Positions 1,307 to 60,389 of a stretch of DNA of 64,000 bases are shown here, piece after piece. The notes beneath the pieces are model-generated. The model saw nothing but the letters and a program-made list of their open reading frames with translations. It made no database searches and was not told where the DNA came from. The stretch lies in assembly GCA_021784575.1 (NCBI GenBank), contig JAJYHX010000001.1, positions 273,280 through 337,279 of the forward strand. The letters are read 5' to 3'. The translations under genes and the position numbers were made by a program. The stretch is from Nitrospirota bacterium. Lineage in GTDB: Bacteria > Nitrospirota > JACRHJ01. Positions within the stretch are counted from its first letter, which is position 1; each line of letters starts with the position of its first letter.

Positions 1307-3781
1307 ATGGCACTTGGGGAGGCCGGCGACAAGGCGGCGGAAGGCCGCAGGAGGGACAGTCAGAACGACTTCTTTAACCAGGCGGCACGGCAACCTTCAG
1401 GGCCGGCGGGCCAGGACGGACCGCCGGCTGGCAGACAGGCGGCGCGCCGTCCGGTTGCGTCGTTCGACCCGCAGCTTTCGGACGCCGGGGACGCGCCGGA
1501 TTTTGTTTTGGATGGATCTGCGGATTATGAAAGGAAACCGGTCTTGACCAAAAACGCGATAAAAGTCCTTGAGAAGAGATACCTGAAAAAGGGCGAGGAC
1601 GGAAATCCCGTCGAGACGCCGGAGGAGATGTTCCTGCGCGTCGCGCGGAACATCGCCCAGGCGGAGACCAACTACGGCATGTCGAAAAAAGACGCGGAGG
1701 CCGTAGCGCGCGGGTTCTACGACATCATGGCCGGGCTTGACTTCCTGCCCAATTCCCCTACGCTTATGAATGCGGGAAGGGAGCTTCAGCAGCTCTCCGC
1801 ATGTTTTGTCCTGCCAATCGAAGATACGATGGAGAGCATATTCTCCACCATCAAGAAGACCGCGCTTATCCACCAGTCCGGCGGCGGGACGGGCTTTTCG
1901 TTCTCGCGTCTGAGGCCTGCGAACGACAAGGTGGCATCCACCGGCGGGGTCGCCTCCGGGCCGGTATCCTTCATGCGCGTTTTCAACGCGGCGACGGAGG
2001 CCGTGAAGCAGGGCGGGACAAGGCGCGGCGCGAACATGGGTATACTGAGGGTTGACCACCCGGACATCCTCGAATTCATAAACTGCAAGGACTCCTCAGG
2101 CGAATACAACAACTTCAATATTTCCGTCGGCATCACCGAGAAGTTCATGGACGCCGTGGACAAGGGTCTGGACTATGAGCTTGTAAGCCCGCGCTCGGGC
2201 AATGTCGTGAAGACCCTCCCGGCGAGGATGGTCTTCAGCCAGATTGTGGATCTCGCCTGGAGGACGGGAGACCCCGGCATTGTCTTCCTCGACCGTCTGA
2301 ACCGGGATAACCCCACCCCGCACATAGGCGAGATAGAATCCACCAACCCCTGCGGGGAACAGCCGCTTCTGCCGCACGAGTCCTGCAACCTGGGCTCCAT
2401 AAACCTCTCCGACATGGTCCGGGACAACGCCATCGACTGGAAGAAGCTTGAGGCGACGGTGAAGACCGCCGTCCGCTTTCTCGACGACGTCATAGACATG
2501 AACCGCTATCCCCTTCCGGAAATATCCGAGATGACAAGGGGCAACAGGAAGATCGGGCTTGGCATCATGGGTTTTGCCGATATGCTCATCAAGCTCGGTA
2601 TCCCGTATAATTCAGACGAGGCGGTTTCCCTTGGCCGAAGCGTGATGAAGTTCATAGACGAAGAGGCGAAGGCCGCCTCCGAGGAGCTTGCCGGCGGGCG
2701 CGGCGTGTTCCCGAATTTCAATGGCAGCGTCTACGACAGGGACGGCGGGCGGAGGATGAGAAACGCCACCGTAACGACCATCGCCCCAACCGGGACTCTC
2801 TCGATAATCGCCGGGTGCAGCAGCGGGATTGAGCCGCTGTTTGCCGTGTCGTATGTCCGCACCGTAATGGACAAAGACGAAATGGTAGAGGTGAATCCTT
2901 ACTTCGCGGCGGTCGCAAAGGAACGCGGCTTTTACTCCGACGCGCTTATGAAGAAGATTGCGCACCACGGGTCCGTGGCCGGCATAAAGGAGGTCCCGGA
3001 GGACATAAAGAGGCTCTTCGTCACGGCGCACGACATAGCGCCCGTCTGGCACGCGAAGATGCAGGCGGCCTTCCAGGAACATACGGACAACGCCGTCTCG
3101 AAGACGGTCAATTTCTCTCACGACGCGACTGTAGCGGACGTGGAGGAGGTCTATCGCCTGGCATACAGCCTCGGCTGCAAGGGCGTCACGATATACCGGG
3201 ACGGGTCCAAGGACGAGCAGGTGCTCTCGACCGGCAGGACGAAGGAGGCGAAGAAAAAAGAAGAGGCGCCGTCGGCGGAAAAGCTCCCGCACGAACCCGG
3301 CAAGATAATGCCCCGGCCCCGGCCGCACATAACCAAAGGATACACGAGGCAGGTCAATACAGGGTGCGGCAGGTTATACGTTACCATCAACAAAGACGAA
3401 AAGGGACTGTGCGAGCTCTTCGCCATGATGGGCAAGTCCGGCGGCTGCGCAACTTCCCAGACGGAGGCTACCGGGCGGCTCGTGTCCCTGGCGCTTCGCT
3501 CCGGGGTCGACCCCGCCTCCATCATAGACCAGCTTAAGGGTATTCGCTGTCCGTCTCCGGCATGGGTCTCCGGCTCCACGATATATTCCTGCGCGGACGC
3601 CATCGCCACTGTGCTGGAGGAATACCTTCTGGAGAAGAAGCAGGCCGGTGAAGATGGCAAAAGCTTCACGGAAGAAAACCTGTTGAACCACTGCCCGCAG
3701 TGTCCGGAGTGCGGCTCGATGGTCTCGTTCGCCGAAGGATGCGTGGTGTGCAGCTCCTGCGGCTACTCCAAGTGCGGCTGA
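1307..3781 (+). CDS. nrdJ: Class II (B12-dependent) ribonucleotide reductase NrdJ
   Basis: Reduces ribonucleotides to deoxyribonucleotides using adenosylcobalamin to make the thiyl radical, so it works with or without oxygen. At 824 aa it is family-sized. The start ATG has GGAGG 6 nt upstream. Active-site residues by analogy with E. coli NrdA: thiyl Cys349 in N347-P-C349-G-E351, redox pair Cys166 (SACFVLP) and Cys360 (HESCNLGSINL). The APTGTLSIIAGCSSGIEP loop is present. The C-terminus is a Cys-rich CPQCPECG...CVVCSSCG...CG tail that should act as a re-reducing zinc-ribbon-like arm. Oddity: the first about 75 residues are Arg/Gly/Ala/Gln-rich and probably disordered; the usual domain begins near LTKNAIKVLEKRYL. 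Regulation is likely by NrdR through the paired boxes upstream. No nrdA/B or nrdD is seen here. Confidence 0.97.
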   Translation: MALGEAGDKAAEGRRRDSQNDFFNQAARQPSGPAGQDGPPAGRQAARRPVASFDPQLSDAGDAPDFVLDGSADYERKPVLTKNAIKVLEKRYLKKGEDGNPVETPEEMFLRVARNIAQAETNYGMSKKDAEAVARGFYDIMAGLDFLPNSPTLMNAGRELQQLSACFVLPIEDTMESIFSTIKKTALIHQSGGGTGFSFSRLRPANDKVASTGGVASGPVSFMRVFNAATEAVKQGGTRRGANMGILRVDHPDILEFINCKDSSGEYNNFNISVGITEKFMDAVDKGLDYELVSPRSGNVVKTLPARMVFSQIVDLAWRTGDPGIVFLDRLNRDNPTPHIGEIESTNPCGEQPLLPHESCNLGSINLSDMVRDNAIDWKKLEATVKTAVRFLDDVIDMNRYPLPEISEMTRGNRKIGLGIMGFADMLIKLGIPYNSDEAVSLGRSVMKFIDEEAKAASEELAGGRGVFPNFNGSVYDRDGGRRMRNATVTTIAPTGTLSIIAGCSSGIEPLFAVSYVRTVMDKDEMVEVNPYFAAVAKERGFYSDALMKKIAHHGSVAGIKEVPEDIKRLFVTAHDIAPVWHAKMQAAFQEHTDNAVSKTVNFSHDATVADVEEVYRLAYSLGCKGVTIYRDGSKDEQVLSTGRTKEAKKKEEAPSAEKLPHEPGKIMPRPRPHITKGYTRQVNTGCGRLYVTINKDEKGLCELFAMMGKSGGCATSQTEATGRLVSLALRSGVDPASIIDQLKGIRCPSPAWVSGSTIYSCADAIATVLEEYLLEKKQAGEDGKSFTEENLLNHCPQCPECGSMVSFAEGCVVCSSCGYSKCG

Positions 3782-39016: not shown

Positions 39017-39580
39017 GGATTTTCCTTTCGGGGCGACGCGCCCCGTAAGCGGATAAGACGGGGGAAAATCGGGTTCAAAAAGAGGCTCTTTTTGCCAGCA
39101 AGGGCGCGAGAAGAAGCATATCGCACCCCTGTCCCGGGAGCCGGAACCCGCCTGTAAAGAAGGGACTAAAGGAGAAGAAAAAACCGAGAGATATTAAGAC
39201 CTTTGGCGCATCCGAGAGCATCCCGGCGGCGGCGAATAACTCCCCGGTGGACCGTGGTGATTCGGAGAGACCGCGCAGAACAGGGCGCTGCATTCGGCCA
39301 GGTTATGAACGGCATACGCCTGCACCGGGAACTCCAGCGTCGGCCGGAGCGTTGCCGTGCAGATGAAGGCGATACCGATTAGAAGCCCAAAAGTCATGTA
39401 AGTTCCTGTAATCTCTAAGTTCTTTTGTTTCTGCCCAAGTCCCTGTGCGGCCATTTCCGCTAAATTGGCCGCCGGAAAATGTTTTGAAGCGTGGTGCGGA
39501 TAACGATTAGAAACGGCTTCCGCAACTACTGCCGCGTCTCCGTAAATCCGTCCCCCCGTCCCCCTTGTTGTTGCAAAATC
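39017..39580. other. Gene-poor interval between 6S RNA and rarA
   Basis: No convincing gene. A minus-strand frame (39194-39643) overlaps the 6S RNA and has unusual composition. Its inner part from about 39385 (MTFGLLIGIAFICTATL) could be a tiny membrane peptide, but it lacks a good ribosome-binding site and a natural end. The promoter for rarA probably lies near 39020-39100, but no clear -35/-10 pair was found. Confidence 0.4.
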
Positions 39581-39757
39581 GGCCCCCGCCCATGCCGTGT
39601 CGGGTAGTGTTTTTTGAGCCTGGTTAAACCAGGTGGGCGCCAAGATGGAGAGTTAAGGCTTCCCTCACGGGCATGCACACCCTCTCCAGATGACCCGGCT
39701 CCCTATTTTTAAGCGTTGGTCAAAAAACCCCCGGTAACCACGCGCCGGGCAGGGGAT
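39581..39757 (-). ncRNA. ssrS: 6S RNA
   Basis: Read on the minus strand, the interval has the 6S signature GCATGCCCGTGAGGGAAGCC followed by TTAA, matching E. coli 6S (GCATGCTCGG...GAGAAGCCTTAA). It also has the small ACCTGGTTTAACCAGG hairpin in the 3' half. The ends pair: CCCCTGCCC (39755-39747) with GGGCGGGGG (39591-39583). The length of about 177 nt is right. The position downstream of zapA is the conserved zapA-ssrS neighbourhood. Known: 6S RNA binds the housekeeping RNA polymerase holoenzyme and modulates growth-phase transcription. The exact 5' and 3' ends are estimated. Confidence 0.88.
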
Positions 39758-39862
39758 AAATAGAACATTGACCAATATAAAAATACTTTATTTGATTGAA
39801 AAATTCAAGGAAAAAATCAGCCGCAACAGGATGCCCAATGAAAAATAAAAATTGCTTGACAG

Positions 39863-54597: not shown

Positions 54598-57057
54598 CTA
54601 TCTGTCTATGTCCGCCATGACGTAATCAAGCGCGCCGACGACCGCTATCAGATCTGATATGAACCAGCCCCGGACAAGCATCGGCGTCATCTGCATATGC
54701 GGAAAGGACGGCGCGCGCACCCGCACCCTGTAAGGATAGTTCAGGCCGTCCGAGACGACGTAGTAGCCGTATTCCCCTTTTGGGGACTCTATGCTGAAAT
54801 ACGCCTCGCCTTTTGGCGGCGTCAGGCCGCGCGTCACGTTCACGAAGTGGTGTATAAGGCTCTCGATGTCGCGCAGCGTGTCCCGTTTCTGCGGTATGCA
54901 GTAGCGGTAGTCCTCCGAGACCCATCGGCCCGGCGGCATTCCCTTTGCCGCCTGCTCTATTATCCTTGCGCTCTGGCGCATCTCCTCCAGCCGAACGAGA
55001 TAGCGGTCGTAGCAGTCCCCTGTATTCCCGACCGGCACGTCGAAGTCGAAGGACTCGTAGCCGGAATAAGGCATTTTTTTCCTCAAATCCCACTCCAGGC
55101 CGCACGCCCTGAGATTCGGCCCGGTCATGCCCCAGTCTATCGCTTGGGCAAGCTCCAGGCCGCCCACGCCCTTTGTCCTGGCCTTGAATATCGCGCTGTC
55201 GGTAAGGAGTCTTGAGTATTCCGTTATCTTGGAGGGAAACTCGCGAATGAAATCGTCTATCATCTCTTTCCAGCCTTCGGGCAGGTCGTCGGCGATTCCG
55301 CCGATGCGGAACCACGACGGATGGAGCCTGCCGCCCGTGATGTGTTCCACTATGTCCATTATCATCTCGCGGTCGCGGAAGCAGTAGAATACCGGAGTCA
55401 TGGCTCCGATGTCGTGCGCAAATGTCCCAAGCCAGACGAGGTGGCTCGAAATCCTGAAAAGCTCGCATAGCATCACGCGGATATACTGCGCGCGCGCCGG
55501 GACATTTACGCCCAGAAGCCTTTCCACCGCGCCAAGGTATGCCAGGTTGTTGTTCGAGCCGATGAGGTATTCGACGCGGTCGGTATAGACGATGTATTGA
55601 TGCCAGGACTGGCGCTCAGCGGTCTTCTCCGCCGCGCGGTGATGGTATCCTATGTCCACGGCCATGTCGAGGATTTCCTCGCCCCGGAGCTTGAGCGCGT
55701 AGCGTATAATCCCGTGCGTCCCGACGTGGTGCGGCCCGAGGTTCAAGTAGGCGGTGTCGAACTCCTCGTCGCCGGTCGAAGCGCCGCCCGCACTTTTGCC
55801 GCGGTTGAAATAATCCTTAATATCGCGCGGCTCGTGGCTGGCCGCGTCGTCTCGCGTATACGGCTTCATGTCCGTCGCCCGATAGGGGTGAGACTTCCTT
55901 AGCGGGTGGCCCTCCCAGTCGTCCGGCATGATAAGCCGTTTGAGGTATGGATGGCCGTCGAAATTTATCCCGAACATATCGTAGGCCTCGCGCTCGTACC
56001 AGTTGGCCGACGGCCATACGCCGGTAACGGACGGCACGGAGGGAGTGTCTCCCGACAGGTCGGATTTTATTCTTATGTGCCCCGGCACATCGTAGGAGAA
56101 AAGCGTGTGGACAAGCGTGAAGTCTTTATGCTTCGTCCTGTCCCGGCGGGCGGACTCGTCCACGGCGGTCAGGTCTTCAAGCCTCTGGAACCTGACGGGC
56201 GCTTTCCTTTTCAGGTACGCGAGCACGTCCGGTATTTTTTCCGGAGGGATTTTTATCGTCGCCATATCGCAGGCCGAGGCGTCGTCCACAACGGCATCGC
56301 CGAATTCCTGTTTCAGGCTCCCGACGACGGCGGAAATTTTTTCCGGTATTGGCGCCGGTCGGCCGGCTGCCGCGGGCGGTGTCCACATAAGCGGCGCGCG
56401 GCTTCCCCACAGCCTCGGCGGGGTAACCTCGGTGCCGCGCATTTTTGTCCCCTCGTATCCGGGGCCTCTGCCGTCCCTGAATTTCGTTACGCCGTCCACA
56501 AGCGGCCCGCCCGCAGTCCCCTGGCTGCCGCCCTTCATATGCAATACTGGGCGGAGCGGTTTTTCTTCCCTTGTAATTTTATCCTGGAGCATGGTGAGGG
56601 CCTGCATGACTTCCTCCGGGCGGGGCGGGCATCCCGGGATGTAGGCGTCCACGGGGAGTATCTGGTTTATACCCTGCACGACGCTGTAGACATCATACAT
56701 CCCGCCGGTGTTGGAACACGACCCCATCGACACCACCCAGCGCGGTTCGGCCATCTGCTCGTAAAGCCGGAGGATCGAGGGGGCCATTTTCTTGAATACC
56801 GTCCCGGCGACGAACATGACATCCGCCTGCCGGGGCGAACCCCGGAGCACCTCCGCGCCGAAGCGCGCGATGTCGTAGCGGGGCGTCGCGGTGTTGCTGA
56901 ACTCTATAAAGCAGCAGGAAAGCCCGAAGAACATCGGCCAGAGGCTGTTCTTGCGGCCCCAGTTCAGGCCGAAGTTCAAGACATCCTCGACGGACGCCAG
57001 CGCTATGCCGCCGCCTATTTGCTTCCCGGCCCCCACTGAAGCCCTTTCTTTTTCCAT
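54598..57057 (-). CDS. nuoBCD: Fused NADH-quinone oxidoreductase subunits B, C and D
   Basis: 819 aa, one uninterrupted frame. NuoB part (about 20-185): [21 protein letters not shown] and [14 protein letters not shown], the ligands of cluster N2. A Gly/Pro-rich linker (about 190-235) leads to NuoC (about 240-400: [39 protein letters not shown]). NuoD (about 430-819) has [31 protein letters not shown] and the C-terminal [27 protein letters not shown]. NuoCD fusions are well known; the triple fusion is rarer. The three parts form the quinone-reducing junction of Complex I. ATG 57057 overlaps the 3' end of nuoA by 43 nt; a GTG at 57036 is an alternative. Confidence 0.94.
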
Positions 57058-57613: not shown

Positions 57614-57642
57614 GCAAAAAAGGAGGGGCAACCTGCCCCTCC
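57614..57642 (-). terminator. Terminator of the dsrE2-porin unit
   Basis: On the minus strand GGAGGGGCA-GGT-TGCCCCTCC followed by TTTTTT; it lies 68 nt downstream of the porin stop and insulates the nuo promoter. Confidence 0.85.
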
Positions 57643-57709: not shown

Positions 57710-59014
57710 TTAGAATATTACATTCAGACCGAACTCGTAGGAGTCCTCGTCGAGCTTGCTCTGGAGCGTTATGGTCTGCCCGCCTAACGCAGCGATAGGG
57801 GCGGAGGTCTCGGATATGGTATTCCCGAAGGCGTGCATGTAGCCCAGGTTAAGCGAGACCTTCTTGGATAAGTTGATCCCGACGCCGGCTGTCAGGTGGT
57901 GCTCCACTATCGCCGGGAAGCCGATTGTCCTCAGGTACTCGTAGAAGAAGGTGTTGGTGGGGGTGCCCTCGACATATGTGGTGCCGAACGCATTCCATCC
58001 GGGATGATCTTTAACAGGGTTGTTGCCGTAGTTGTAGCCCAGCCGCAGCGCCAGCCAGTTCAGGGGTTTTTCCTGAATTCCGACGGCCACGATGTACTGG
58101 TCCTTCCAGTCGAAGTCCTTGTATCCCGACGCGTCCGCCCAGTCATACCATCTGCCGTCCACCTCCATCATCAGCTTGTTGGGGATGATGTCGTAGCCCA
58201 CTCCGGCCGACACCTGGTTGGGCTGTTCCAGGGTGAGGTTGTCCAGCGTGTTGTCGGTATTGGCCAACCCGAAGGCAGCCAGACTGGGCGGGTTGAAGTT
58301 GTATATGTTCTTGAAGGTATGCCTCTGTGCGGACTGCCATGTCACGCCGATGGAGAGCGGGTCTATCGGCTTGTATATGATGCCGAGCTGTGTGCCGTAT
58401 CCAAATGTGTGCGAGCTGCCGTCGCCAAGGTCGAGCTGCGCCCAGTTCAGCTGAAAGGCCGCGCCGACGGAGAGATTCGGGAGTATCCTGTAGGCCAGGT
58501 TCGGCGCGAACTTCATTATCTGGAGGTCGGTCTTTATATCTGTACCGGGAAGGGGTGTGGTAAGGCTGAAGGCCTTGTCGAAGGCCGTGCCTACATTGGC
58601 CAGACCAGTGCCCTTGTAGTCAACGCCGAGGCCGCTCACGCCGTATGCGGCGAGGCCGAATTTCAAATCAGGGGTAATAGGCGTGTAAATACCGATGGCC
58701 GGGAAGGCGTAGGGTTCGCTGTTGCTGGAGGCCGAGATGGTGCCGGTGAGGGGCGTGGTCACGTTGGCCTTCACGTGCGGATAGAACAGGCTTGCCGCGA
58801 AATCCACCTCGGACGACTGGCAGGGGATGTAGCACATGGCGGCGGGGTTGCCGAAAACCGCCGTTATGGCGTCCTGCGGGTCGGCGGTGCCGACGCCGCC
58901 CATCGAGCGCGATACCGCACCGACACCAATGATATTGTCGCCGTTTGTGGCGAATGCGGGGGCCGAGAAGCAAATCACGGCCAGGACTGCCGCAAAAGCA
59001 AAAAACTTCCTCAT
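57710..59014 (-). CDS. OMPP1/FadL/TodX-family outer-membrane porin
   Basis: 434 aa. Start at 59014 has GGAGGAGAGG upstream and signal peptide MRKFFAFAAVLAVICFSAPAFA. The mature N-terminus TNGDNIIGVGAVSRSMGGVGTADPQDAITAVFGNPAAM is the family hallmark (NPA motif after the hatch region). Repeated amphipathic beta-strands fill the rest and the protein ends in YEFGLNVIF with terminal Phe, as in outer-membrane barrels. Family members carry hydrophobic compounds across the outer membrane. It follows dsrE2 by 92 nt, apparently in the same transcription unit. Confidence 0.93.
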   Translation of the reverse strand: MRKFFAFAAVLAVICFSAPAFATNGDNIIGVGAVSRSMGGVGTADPQDAITAVFGNPAAMCYIPCQSSEVDFAASLFYPHVKANVTTPLTGTISASSNSEPYAFPAIGIYTPITPDLKFGLAAYGVSGLGVDYKGTGLANVGTAFDKAFSLTTPLPGTDIKTDLQIMKFAPNLAYRILPNLSVGAAFQLNWAQLDLGDGSSHTFGYGTQLGIIYKPIDPLSIGVTWQSAQRHTFKNIYNFNPPSLAAFGLANTDNTLDNLTLEQPNQVSAGVGYDIIPNKLMMEVDGRWYDWADASGYKDFDWKDQYIVAVGIQEKPLNWLALRLGYNYGNNPVKDHPGWNAFGTTYVEGTPTNTFFYEYLRTIGFPAIVEHHLTAGVGINLSKKVSLNLGYMHAFGNTISETSAPIAALGGQTITLQSKLDEDSYEFGLNVIF

Positions 59015-59106
59015 CCTCTCCTCCGTTCGGTTATGGCCGTCAAGACTGTTCGGGAACCTTCCCGCGCCGCCTAAACGGCCCATATAAAACGTTTTCTACG
59101 CTTCGA

Positions 59107-59580
59107 TCAGACGAAAAGCGGTATCTGCGCGCCCGCGGCGAACTCCAGGTACATAGCCGCCCCGCCGAAAGCCACGCCGTCAACGAAATCGGACTGCTTC
59201 ATGCCGAAGAGGTCGATGGTCATCTGGCAGGCGATCATCTTCACATCCGACATCTGGCATATCTCGATGAGCTTCGGTATCGGCAGGACGTTGTGCTTCT
59301 TCATCATGCCCTTCATCATCATCGTGGCCATGGAAGGCATCCCCGGCAGCGTCCCAAGGAACCCCTGGAAAAGCCCCGGCATCCCGGCGTTGGCGTGCGG
59401 GAAGACCTTAAGGTTGTTCATCCTCTGCTTGTGTATTATGTTCAGGCCGTAGAACGTGAAGAATATCTGCGCCTCCATGTCGAGCGCCGCAGCGGCGGAA
59501 GCAAGGATTAGCGGCGGGTAGGCCATGTCAAGCGTGCCCTTTGAGGCTATTATGGCGATTTTTGAAATTTCTTCGGACAT
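59107..59580 (-). CDS. DsrE2-like (DsrE/DsrF/TusD family) protein
   Basis: 157 aa. Rossmann-like start KIAIIASKGTLDMAYPPLIL, a hydrophobic central part (FTFYGLNIIHK), a Met-rich stretch (MPSMATMMMKGMM) and the conserved Cys region KMIACQMTIDLFGM. Known: DsrE-type proteins carry persulfide sulfur in dissimilatory sulfur metabolism and sulfur relay; DsrE2 members are membrane-associated and often lie near rhodanese/TusA genes. No such genes are adjacent here. A good Shine-Dalgarno GAAGGAGT precedes the ATG. Its leader appears to be controlled by antitermination. Confidence 0.85.
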   Translation of the reverse strand: MSEEISKIAIIASKGTLDMAYPPLILASAAAALDMEAQIFFTFYGLNIIHKQRMNNLKVFPHANAGMPGLFQGFLGTLPGMPSMATMMMKGMMKKHNVLPIPKLIEICQMSDVKMIACQMTIDLFGMKQSDFVDGVAFGGAAMYLEFAAGAQIPLFV

Positions 59581-59618
59581 TTTGGAGACTCCTTCTTTAA
59601 AAAAACCGGGTTCAAAAC

Positions 59619-59700
59619 AAAAAAACCTTCCCCCAGGCCTTCACGGGCCAAGAGAAAGGCTTCCCGGCCTTTCTGTAAAAGAGCCTCCGTCATGAGAGGC
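59619..59700 (-). promoter_or_regulatory. Predicted ANTAR antitermination leader with terminator
   Basis: On the minus strand, 9 nt after the ANTAR gene stop: hairpin P1 (59700-59683, GCCTCT-CATGAC-GGAGGC, hexaloop). After 8 nt comes hairpin P2 (59674-59653, AGAAAGGC-CGGGAA-GCCTTTCT, hexaloop). The 3' arm of P2 is shared with a terminator (59659-59619) whose 14-bp stem closes on GGCC-CGTGAA-GGCC and ends in seven T. P2 and the terminator are mutually exclusive. Known: ANTAR proteins bind tandem hexaloop hairpins and stop terminator formation. The canonical loops have A1 and G4; here all three loops have C1, G4 and A5. Confidence 0.6.
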
Positions 59701-59709
59701 GTGTTGAAA

Positions 59710-60285
59710 CTATATAAGTTCGGCGGCGGTGATTATCGACTGGGCGATGTTTTCCATGGAGACGTTCGAGTCCCTGGAGAGCTTCTGTATCCTCAAAAAG
59801 GCCTCTTCCTCGTTTAACGAATTCCTTTTCATGAGGATACCCTTCGCCCGCTCGATAATCTTTCTTATCCTGAGAGCTTCCTTGCAGTCCCCTACCTCTT
59901 CCCTCAGGGCCTGGCACTGCCTGAAACGCGATATTCCGAGCTCCACCGAACCAAGCAGGTTCTCCCGCGTCAGAGGACCGAAAAAATGGGCCGAAACACC
60001 AAGCCCGTCTGCCCTGACGGCGTCGGAGAGCTGCTCGAAATTATAATGCATCACTACCGGGACGGGGCGCACGGAGATGAGCCCGTCGACAATGGCAAGC
60101 GGCTCGCCCTCCGGCAATTCCTGGCCGTCCAGTATGATTACGTCCGGTTCGGCCTTCCCCGCCACAGCCAGCGCGCTTTGCAGGTCATGCACCGCGGTAA
60201 TCCTCGTAAGCCCTTCTTTTTTCAGTAAACCCGCAATCTTTCGGCACCGCGCCGGACTGCCGATAATAAGGAACTTGCGCGTCAT
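59710..60285 (-). CDS. ANTAR-domain RNA-binding antiterminator
   Basis: 191 aa. The N-terminal about 120 residues are a receiver-like fold (FLIIGSPARCRKIAG; DVIILDGQELP) that lacks the usual acidic pair at its first strand, so phosphorylation is doubtful although Asp53 is kept. C-terminal ANTAR domain: coiled EEVGDCKEALRIRKIIERAKGILMKRNSLNEEEAFLRIQKLSRDSNVSMENIAQSIITA matches the family pattern. ATG 60285 follows AGGTGATA; an overlapping GTG (60291) is possible. Known: such proteins bind paired RNA hairpins and allow transcription through a terminator. The likely target lies immediately downstream, before dsrE2. Confidence 0.9.
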   Translation of the reverse strand: MTRKFLIIGSPARCRKIAGLLKKEGLTRITAVHDLQSALAVAGKAEPDVIILDGQELPEGEPLAIVDGLISVRPVPVVMHYNFEQLSDAVRADGLGVSAHFFGPLTRENLLGSVELGISRFRQCQALREEVGDCKEALRIRKIIERAKGILMKRNSLNEEEAFLRIQKLSRDSNVSMENIAQSIITAAELI

Positions 60286-60360
60286 TATCACCTGATAGGA
60301 ACTTCGGACCGTAACGACCTTGCAACCGCGAAAGTATGACTTTTGTCACAATCCGACATC

Positions 60361-60389
60361 AATATAATATTTCTGAATGATATTGTCAA
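60361..60389 (-). promoter_or_regulatory. Promoter of the ANTAR gene
   Basis: On the minus strand TTGACA, 17-nt spacer, TATATT, about 75 nt before the start codon. A short TGAC-AAAA-GTCA palindrome lies in the leader (60337-60348) and could be an operator. Confidence 0.7.

Follow-up and report, generated by a model that had tools for sequence, protein, structure and literature searches.

The ANTAR-dsrE2-fadL operon and its leader

The window, the whole stretch of 64,000 nucleotides that was analysed, comes from a metagenome-assembled Nitrospirota genome of 2.1 Mb and carries an ANTAR-dsrE2-fadL operon, with all operon and leader features on the minus strand. A sigma-70-like promoter (TTGACA-17-TATATT, 60361-60389) with 11 of 12 consensus matches is found upstream of the ANTAR gene (59710-60291; 193 amino acids, alternative ATG start at 60285). 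The encoded regulator has a degenerate receiver domain and a C-terminal ANTAR domain (about 59731-59883); the genome has no other ANTAR gene. It matches PF03861 with 69.9 bits, above the Pfam gathering cut-off of 27.3, and its score for the receiver family PF00072 is below the cut-off. The next gene (59107-59580, ATG at 59580) follows the Shine-Dalgarno sequence AAGGAG at 59594-59589 and encodes a DsrE2-like sulfur carrier of 157 amino acids, which belongs to the wider family PF13686 (166.6 bits) and scores 174.4 bits with the DsrE2 equivalog NF047629, under the NCBIfam cut-off of 210. The last gene (57710-59083) encodes a FadL/TodX-type outer-membrane protein (PF03349, 73.8 bits, cut-off 29.7), the signal peptide of which probably starts at an internal MRKFFAF. 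An intrinsic terminator at 57622-57642, a 9-pair stem followed by TTTTTT, ends the operon. No AmiC-like or nitrate-binding partner gene is present in the operon.

Two other features were seen on the minus strand of the window. A single frame of 819 amino acids (54598-57057) resembles by eye, in translation, a fusion of NuoB, NuoC and NuoD of complex I, and a 6S RNA (Rfam RF00013, 96.9 bits) at 39579-39758 is the sole Rfam match in the window.

The ANTAR stop codon (TAG, 59712-59710) is followed by 9 nt and then by hairpin P1 (59700-59683) of the leader. P1 has a 6-bp stem with arms GCCTCT and GGAGGC, a closing U.G pair and the hexaloop CATGAC, which is CCTGAC in one congener. A linker of 8 nt (59682-59675) leads to P2 (59674-59653), a perfect stem of 8 bp read as AGAAAGGC, hexaloop CGGGAA and GCCTTTCT. 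The intrinsic terminator (59659-59619) shares the 3' arm of P2 as its 5' arm; its arms at 59659-59646 and 59639-59626 form a stem of 14 positions with one T.T mismatch, around the loop CGTGAA (59645-59640) and ahead of seven T residues (59625-59619). The sequence-only reading had described this layout up to dsrE2, including the 9 nt between the ANTAR gene and P1, and re-reading of the minus strand gave exactly the same. The minus strand shows no promoter-like site from the end of the ANTAR gene to dsrE2, including the part that follows this terminator.

The predicted fold of the minus-strand leader is lower in energy than those of its shuffled versions by a wide margin (z -4.3, 0 of 200), while the plus-strand fold is unremarkable (z -1.7). 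No family in Rfam 15 reaches its gathering threshold for the leader, the best weak match being on the wrong strand. The terminator loop CGTGAA, invariant within the genus, also fits the pattern C1-x-x-G4-A5. It was considered as a third recognition hexaloop and taken as chance; the terminators of other families have no such loop.

Conservation and targets of the leader in Nitrospirota

The search for relatives covered 396 Nitrospirota genomes. The class of the window genome is small, with six genomes examined, and a first scan for close relatives returned three congeners only. These keep the gene order, and their leaders are nearly identical letter for letter. In one further genome of the genus (G005, 75% complete) and one of the same family (G001), no clade protein, leader or dsrE2 was found. 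A protein search of the phylum gave a second tier of full-length ANTAR relatives in four further families (f5, f6, f14 and f35), and tandem hexaloop hairpins with C-x-x-G-A loops were found beside three ANTAR genes of f5.

A covariance model (R1) run on the 396 genomes gave matches at E<=1e-4 in ten genomes only, all bearing this ANTAR clade. Some of the ten had supplied training sequences; G002, G035, G062 and G067 had not. Within f5, leaders occur in each of the five clade-bearing genomes and in none of the nine that lack the clade. A second model (R2) was trained on f5 alone, as a leave-family-out test of the window leader. In the window genome the leader is the top match of R2 (34.3 bits, E 5.5e-6; the next match has 22.3), as it is in each of the three congeners. 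R2 also adds leaders in G279, G010, G019 and G027, so that leaders of this class are found in 14 of 15 clade genomes and in no genome that lacks the clade; in the remaining clade genome (G202), which has the clade protein and a second ANTAR protein, no leader was found. Among 38 genomes with dsrE2 and without the ANTAR clade the R2 maximum is 26.6 bits, and the top matches there have no terminator. The f6 matches (27.6-29.7 bits) are barely over this noise and are based further on terminators at two of four sites and on the operons behind them. Weak matches elsewhere in the phylum (L067, L068, L086, L127, L129 and L178-L180) lack a terminator and were rejected. The 3' arm of P2 is reused by the terminator in 21 of 24 leaders, compared with 0 of 9 spurious matches. 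The architecture of ANTAR antitermination in cis, which the sequence-only reading had recognised, is well supported by the comparative evidence, and the R2 rank of the window leader together with the compensatory changes in relatives shows more than a chance structure.

The same reading had proposed a covariance search in related genomes and had counted a lack of compensatory changes against itself. Such changes are present: four of the six P1 pairs vary on both sides, and the four inner pairs of P2 are invariant. In an alignment of 20 distinct sequences, which was fitted to the model and therefore somewhat favours the structure, 99.2% of cells are paired, 29 cells are doubly changed compared with 8.6 in shuffles, and the covariation score is 0.389 against 0.205 when shuffled and at most 0.136 when slid. 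The 15 sequences of f5, aligned by MAFFT without a model, score 0.253 against 0.154. The leader is nearly invariant within the genus, and the covariation signal comes from the other families. One alignment (A8) had P2 misaligned by loops of 7 nt.

It had also been claimed that the targets are neither nitrate/nitrite nor ethanolamine genes, and this agrees with the recurrence of the sulfur carrier and FadL in other families. The dsrE2/FadL target is found again in f6 and f35, and FadL alone in f14. The order is leader-TusA-DsrE2-SCP2-like-FadL-TusA in G279, where the first TusA was called from a CPMPVV motif, and leader-FadL-...-DsrE2-FadL in G010. In G019 an unlinked leader stands immediately ahead of DsrE2, and in G035 a leader precedes a FadL-like start that was judged by eye from a fragment without a Pfam match. 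In the window genome, dsrE2 is probably the sole target of the leader class because the other candidate sites score near noise; one of them, L128, has neither a hexaloop pair nor a terminator.

The targets in f5 are of another kind. Nine leaders lie ahead of genes for exported proteins that carry cytochrome c domains and 7-12 CxxCH haem motifs, in one case with a small gene in between, and another leader sits ahead of the ANTAR gene itself. Three genomes (G041, G052 and G083) resemble the window in having a leader also 3' of the ANTAR gene. The combination of leader and multiheme c-type cytochromes at L108, L109, L110, L112, L114, L117, L118 and L120 has the appearance of an ANTAR cytochrome regulon. 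At L117 (G083) two plus-strand leaders (2841-2882 and 3687-3727) lie one on each side of the ANTAR gene, which suggests autoregulation. A small Cys-containing protein (CKLFxDxVxEHLCxLRRRELNxxGGFSCEGC-like) follows f5 leaders at L115, L116, L117 and L111, mostly directly 3' of the ANTAR gene. Literature searches gave nothing on DsrE2 together with FadL and nothing relevant on ANTAR with Nitrospirota or with cytochromes.

Loop sequence, ANTAR residues and input to the regulator

The leader has the features of an ANTAR-target RNA: tandem short hexaloop hairpins with a short linker, G4 in both loops and an overlap between P2 and the terminator. The ANTAR RNAs of the literature carry A1 and G4 (PMC3369931), and A1/G4 is found in more than half of the actinobacterial ones (PMC8164766). 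Here A is missing from loop position 1, which is C in the window and C or T across the clade leaders. Because it fails the A1 of the published consensus, the RNA is classed as a new variant of ANTAR-target RNA, and a predicted antiterminator, rather than as a plain member. Among the 24 clade leaders, G4 and A5 are present in 21/21 P1 and 19/19 P2 hexaloops; position 1 is C in 18/21 and 18/19 respectively and otherwise T, and the loop is closed by U.G or C-G. The C1-x-x-G4-A5 signature noted in the window leader thus extends, as Y1-N-N-G4-A5, to five Nitrospirota families. The hexaloop is not strict, with loops of 7 nt in places in f6. In three leaders of that family (L123, L124 and L125) such loops (CATGGCT, CATGAAC) keep C1 and G4 and are possibly a further variant.

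The signature goes together with a replacement of Met by Arg at the loop-plugging position of EutV. In the EutV-RNA structure, Tyr164 lies under a stacked G4, Met172 is essential and plugs the loop, and A1 is without contact (PMC8934654). Alignment with EutV places Phe165 at Tyr164 and Arg173 at Met172 in the window protein. The plug residue is Arg in all 15 clade proteins and Met in all 15 other Nitrospirota ANTAR proteins. A scan for tandem hexaloops with a shared terminator, allowing any loop sequence, found C1/G4 leaders next to genes of the clade, whereas two Met-type genes had A1/G4 leaders next to them; a third A1/G4 leader of a Met-type ANTAR was found by a scan in which A1 was demanded, and the contrast set therefore comprises two or three leaders. 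From this pattern we infer that Arg at the plug position is linked to the variant loop code, but the match is a correlation between two clades that shared ancestry could explain.

One of the closest known systems is that of the eut leaders and EutV in Enterococcus faecalis, with dual hexaloops, a short linker, a strand shared by P2 and the terminator, and G4 in both loops (PMC3369931, PMC8934654). Both regulators are receiver-ANTAR proteins, and the RNA contacts R142, K143, K149 and E160 of EutV are kept here. In contrast to the EutV system, the first loop base is C or T instead of A and A5 is fixed, and in addition to the two changes above Arg168, Arg175 and Arg177 correspond to Gln169, Asn176 and Ser178. 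The window genus also differs in having no kinase, a degenerate receiver, and sulfur and outer-membrane targets. Actinobacterial ANTAR RNAs are similar in having dual stem-loops, a variable linker and targets beyond nitrogen metabolism, but most are A1/G4, few overlap terminators and many lie over the ribosome site or inside genes (PMC8164766). The ANTAR domains of AmiR in Pseudomonas and NasR in Klebsiella likewise act on leader terminators, although with canonical A1/G4 loops (PMC3369931) and amide and nitrate targets. The Met-type Nitrospirota systems share the phylum and the dual hexaloops with a terminator by the ANTAR gene, but have proteins of about 420 amino acids, a Met plug and canonical A1/G4 loops. 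Their A1/G4 dual hairpins and terminators adjoin the ANTAR genes at L051, L054 and L056 (minus strand, about 2730-2930).

The receiver in the window genus has kept D55 but is without the acidic pair, Thr/Ser and Lys. A GAF-histidine kinase gene adjoins the ANTAR gene in f6, f14 and f35, and orthologues are found unlinked in three f5 genomes; in all, the kinase orthologue is present in seven relatives and absent from 4/4 ANTAR-bearing genomes of the window genus. With an incomplete phosphorylation site and no cognate kinase, the window protein does not qualify as a two-component response regulator. Since the kinase is absent and the phosphorylation residues are lost, the regulator of this genus is unlikely to be switched by phosphorylation, and its input probably comes from a partner protein, from a ligand or from the amount of the regulator itself. 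AmiR, which has a receiver-like domain and does not rely on phosphorylation, resembles the window protein in this respect.

Proposed regulation of dsrE2 and fadL

Judged from sequence comparison, the leader very probably serves ANTAR antitermination in the ANTAR-dsrE2-fadL operon, with a variant loop code. Transcription would begin upstream of the ANTAR gene and, by default, the leader would fold as the terminator so that RNA polymerase halts after this gene. An active ANTAR dimer would grip the hexaloops of both hairpins once these emerge, recognising the pattern Y1-N-N-G4-A5 (position 1 almost always C) through an ANTAR surface that carries Arg in place of the loop-plugging Met. Readthrough into dsrE2 and fadL would follow because P2 holds the 5' arm of the terminator. 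The structures with their conservation, covariation and terminator overlap, the association with the ANTAR clade, the loop code and the repeated targets are seen in the sequences themselves; that the protein binds this RNA and that antitermination takes place in the cell we infer.

The terminator is strong by itself, and dsrE2 could in principle be tuned by a plain operon-internal terminator without a regulator, the upstream hairpins being fortuitous. This is very improbable in view of P1, which lies outside the terminator and yet covaries across families, and of the dual hairpin as a whole, which tracks the ANTAR clade and elsewhere precedes unrelated genes. It is also quite improbable that the ANTAR protein represses through the hairpins, by keeping the terminator or by blocking translation, a mode put forward for the ANTAR RNAs of mycobacteria. 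Actinobacterial ANTAR RNAs over ribosome sites are reported, after earlier work, as repressing translation (PMC8164766), but P2 and the terminator are mutually exclusive in the present leaders, and the conservation of their overlap fits antitermination.

A translational layer might be added to antitermination. The Shine-Dalgarno region GAAGGAGTCTCC (59584-59595) is predicted to form 12 bp with 59688-59677, the 3' arm of P1 and the linker, which without the regulator would silence readthrough RNA, while the P1-P2 form would free the site. In the minimum-energy folds of 4/4 congeners this helix is present and all of the Shine-Dalgarno sequence is paired; when P1-P2 is forced, several positions of that sequence become more likely to be unpaired. 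The 12 pairs are kept in G004, which has a changed linker. The duplex (-19.3 kcal/mol) is matched in strength by 0 of 5000 full-arm shuffles, but by 302 of 5000 linker shuffles when the P1 sequence is fixed. The pairing could silence leaky transcripts, but the layer is kept as a prediction because much of the pairing follows from P1's own sequence. The congeners are also closely alike, the P1-P2 form frees the ribosome site only partly and least in G004, and in other families the start codon is usually far from the motif. Antitermination together with translational control is a tentative proposal and somewhat doubtful.

Searches for ANTAR targets have used models with A1/G4 fixed, by which the C1 class would be missed, and the class is absent from Rfam. 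The EutV crystal structure left the role of loop position 1 open, and the natural paired change, Met to Arg in the protein and A1 to C1 plus A5 in the RNA, makes the basis of loop recognition testable. There is an even chance that Nitrospirota possess a second ANTAR code, in which the Arg-plug clade reads Y1-N-N-G4-A5 closed by U.G or C-G and coexists in one phylum with Met-plug proteins that read A1-N-N-G4, and in which the regulator of the window genus has lost its kinase and come to lie beside its only target, with an additional translational layer. Antitermination by such proteins would bring sulfur carriers with FadL porins, as well as exported multiheme cytochromes, under ANTAR control in Nitrospirota. 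It also suggests how kinase-driven control in trans could give way to a regulator that needs no kinase and lies beside its own target.
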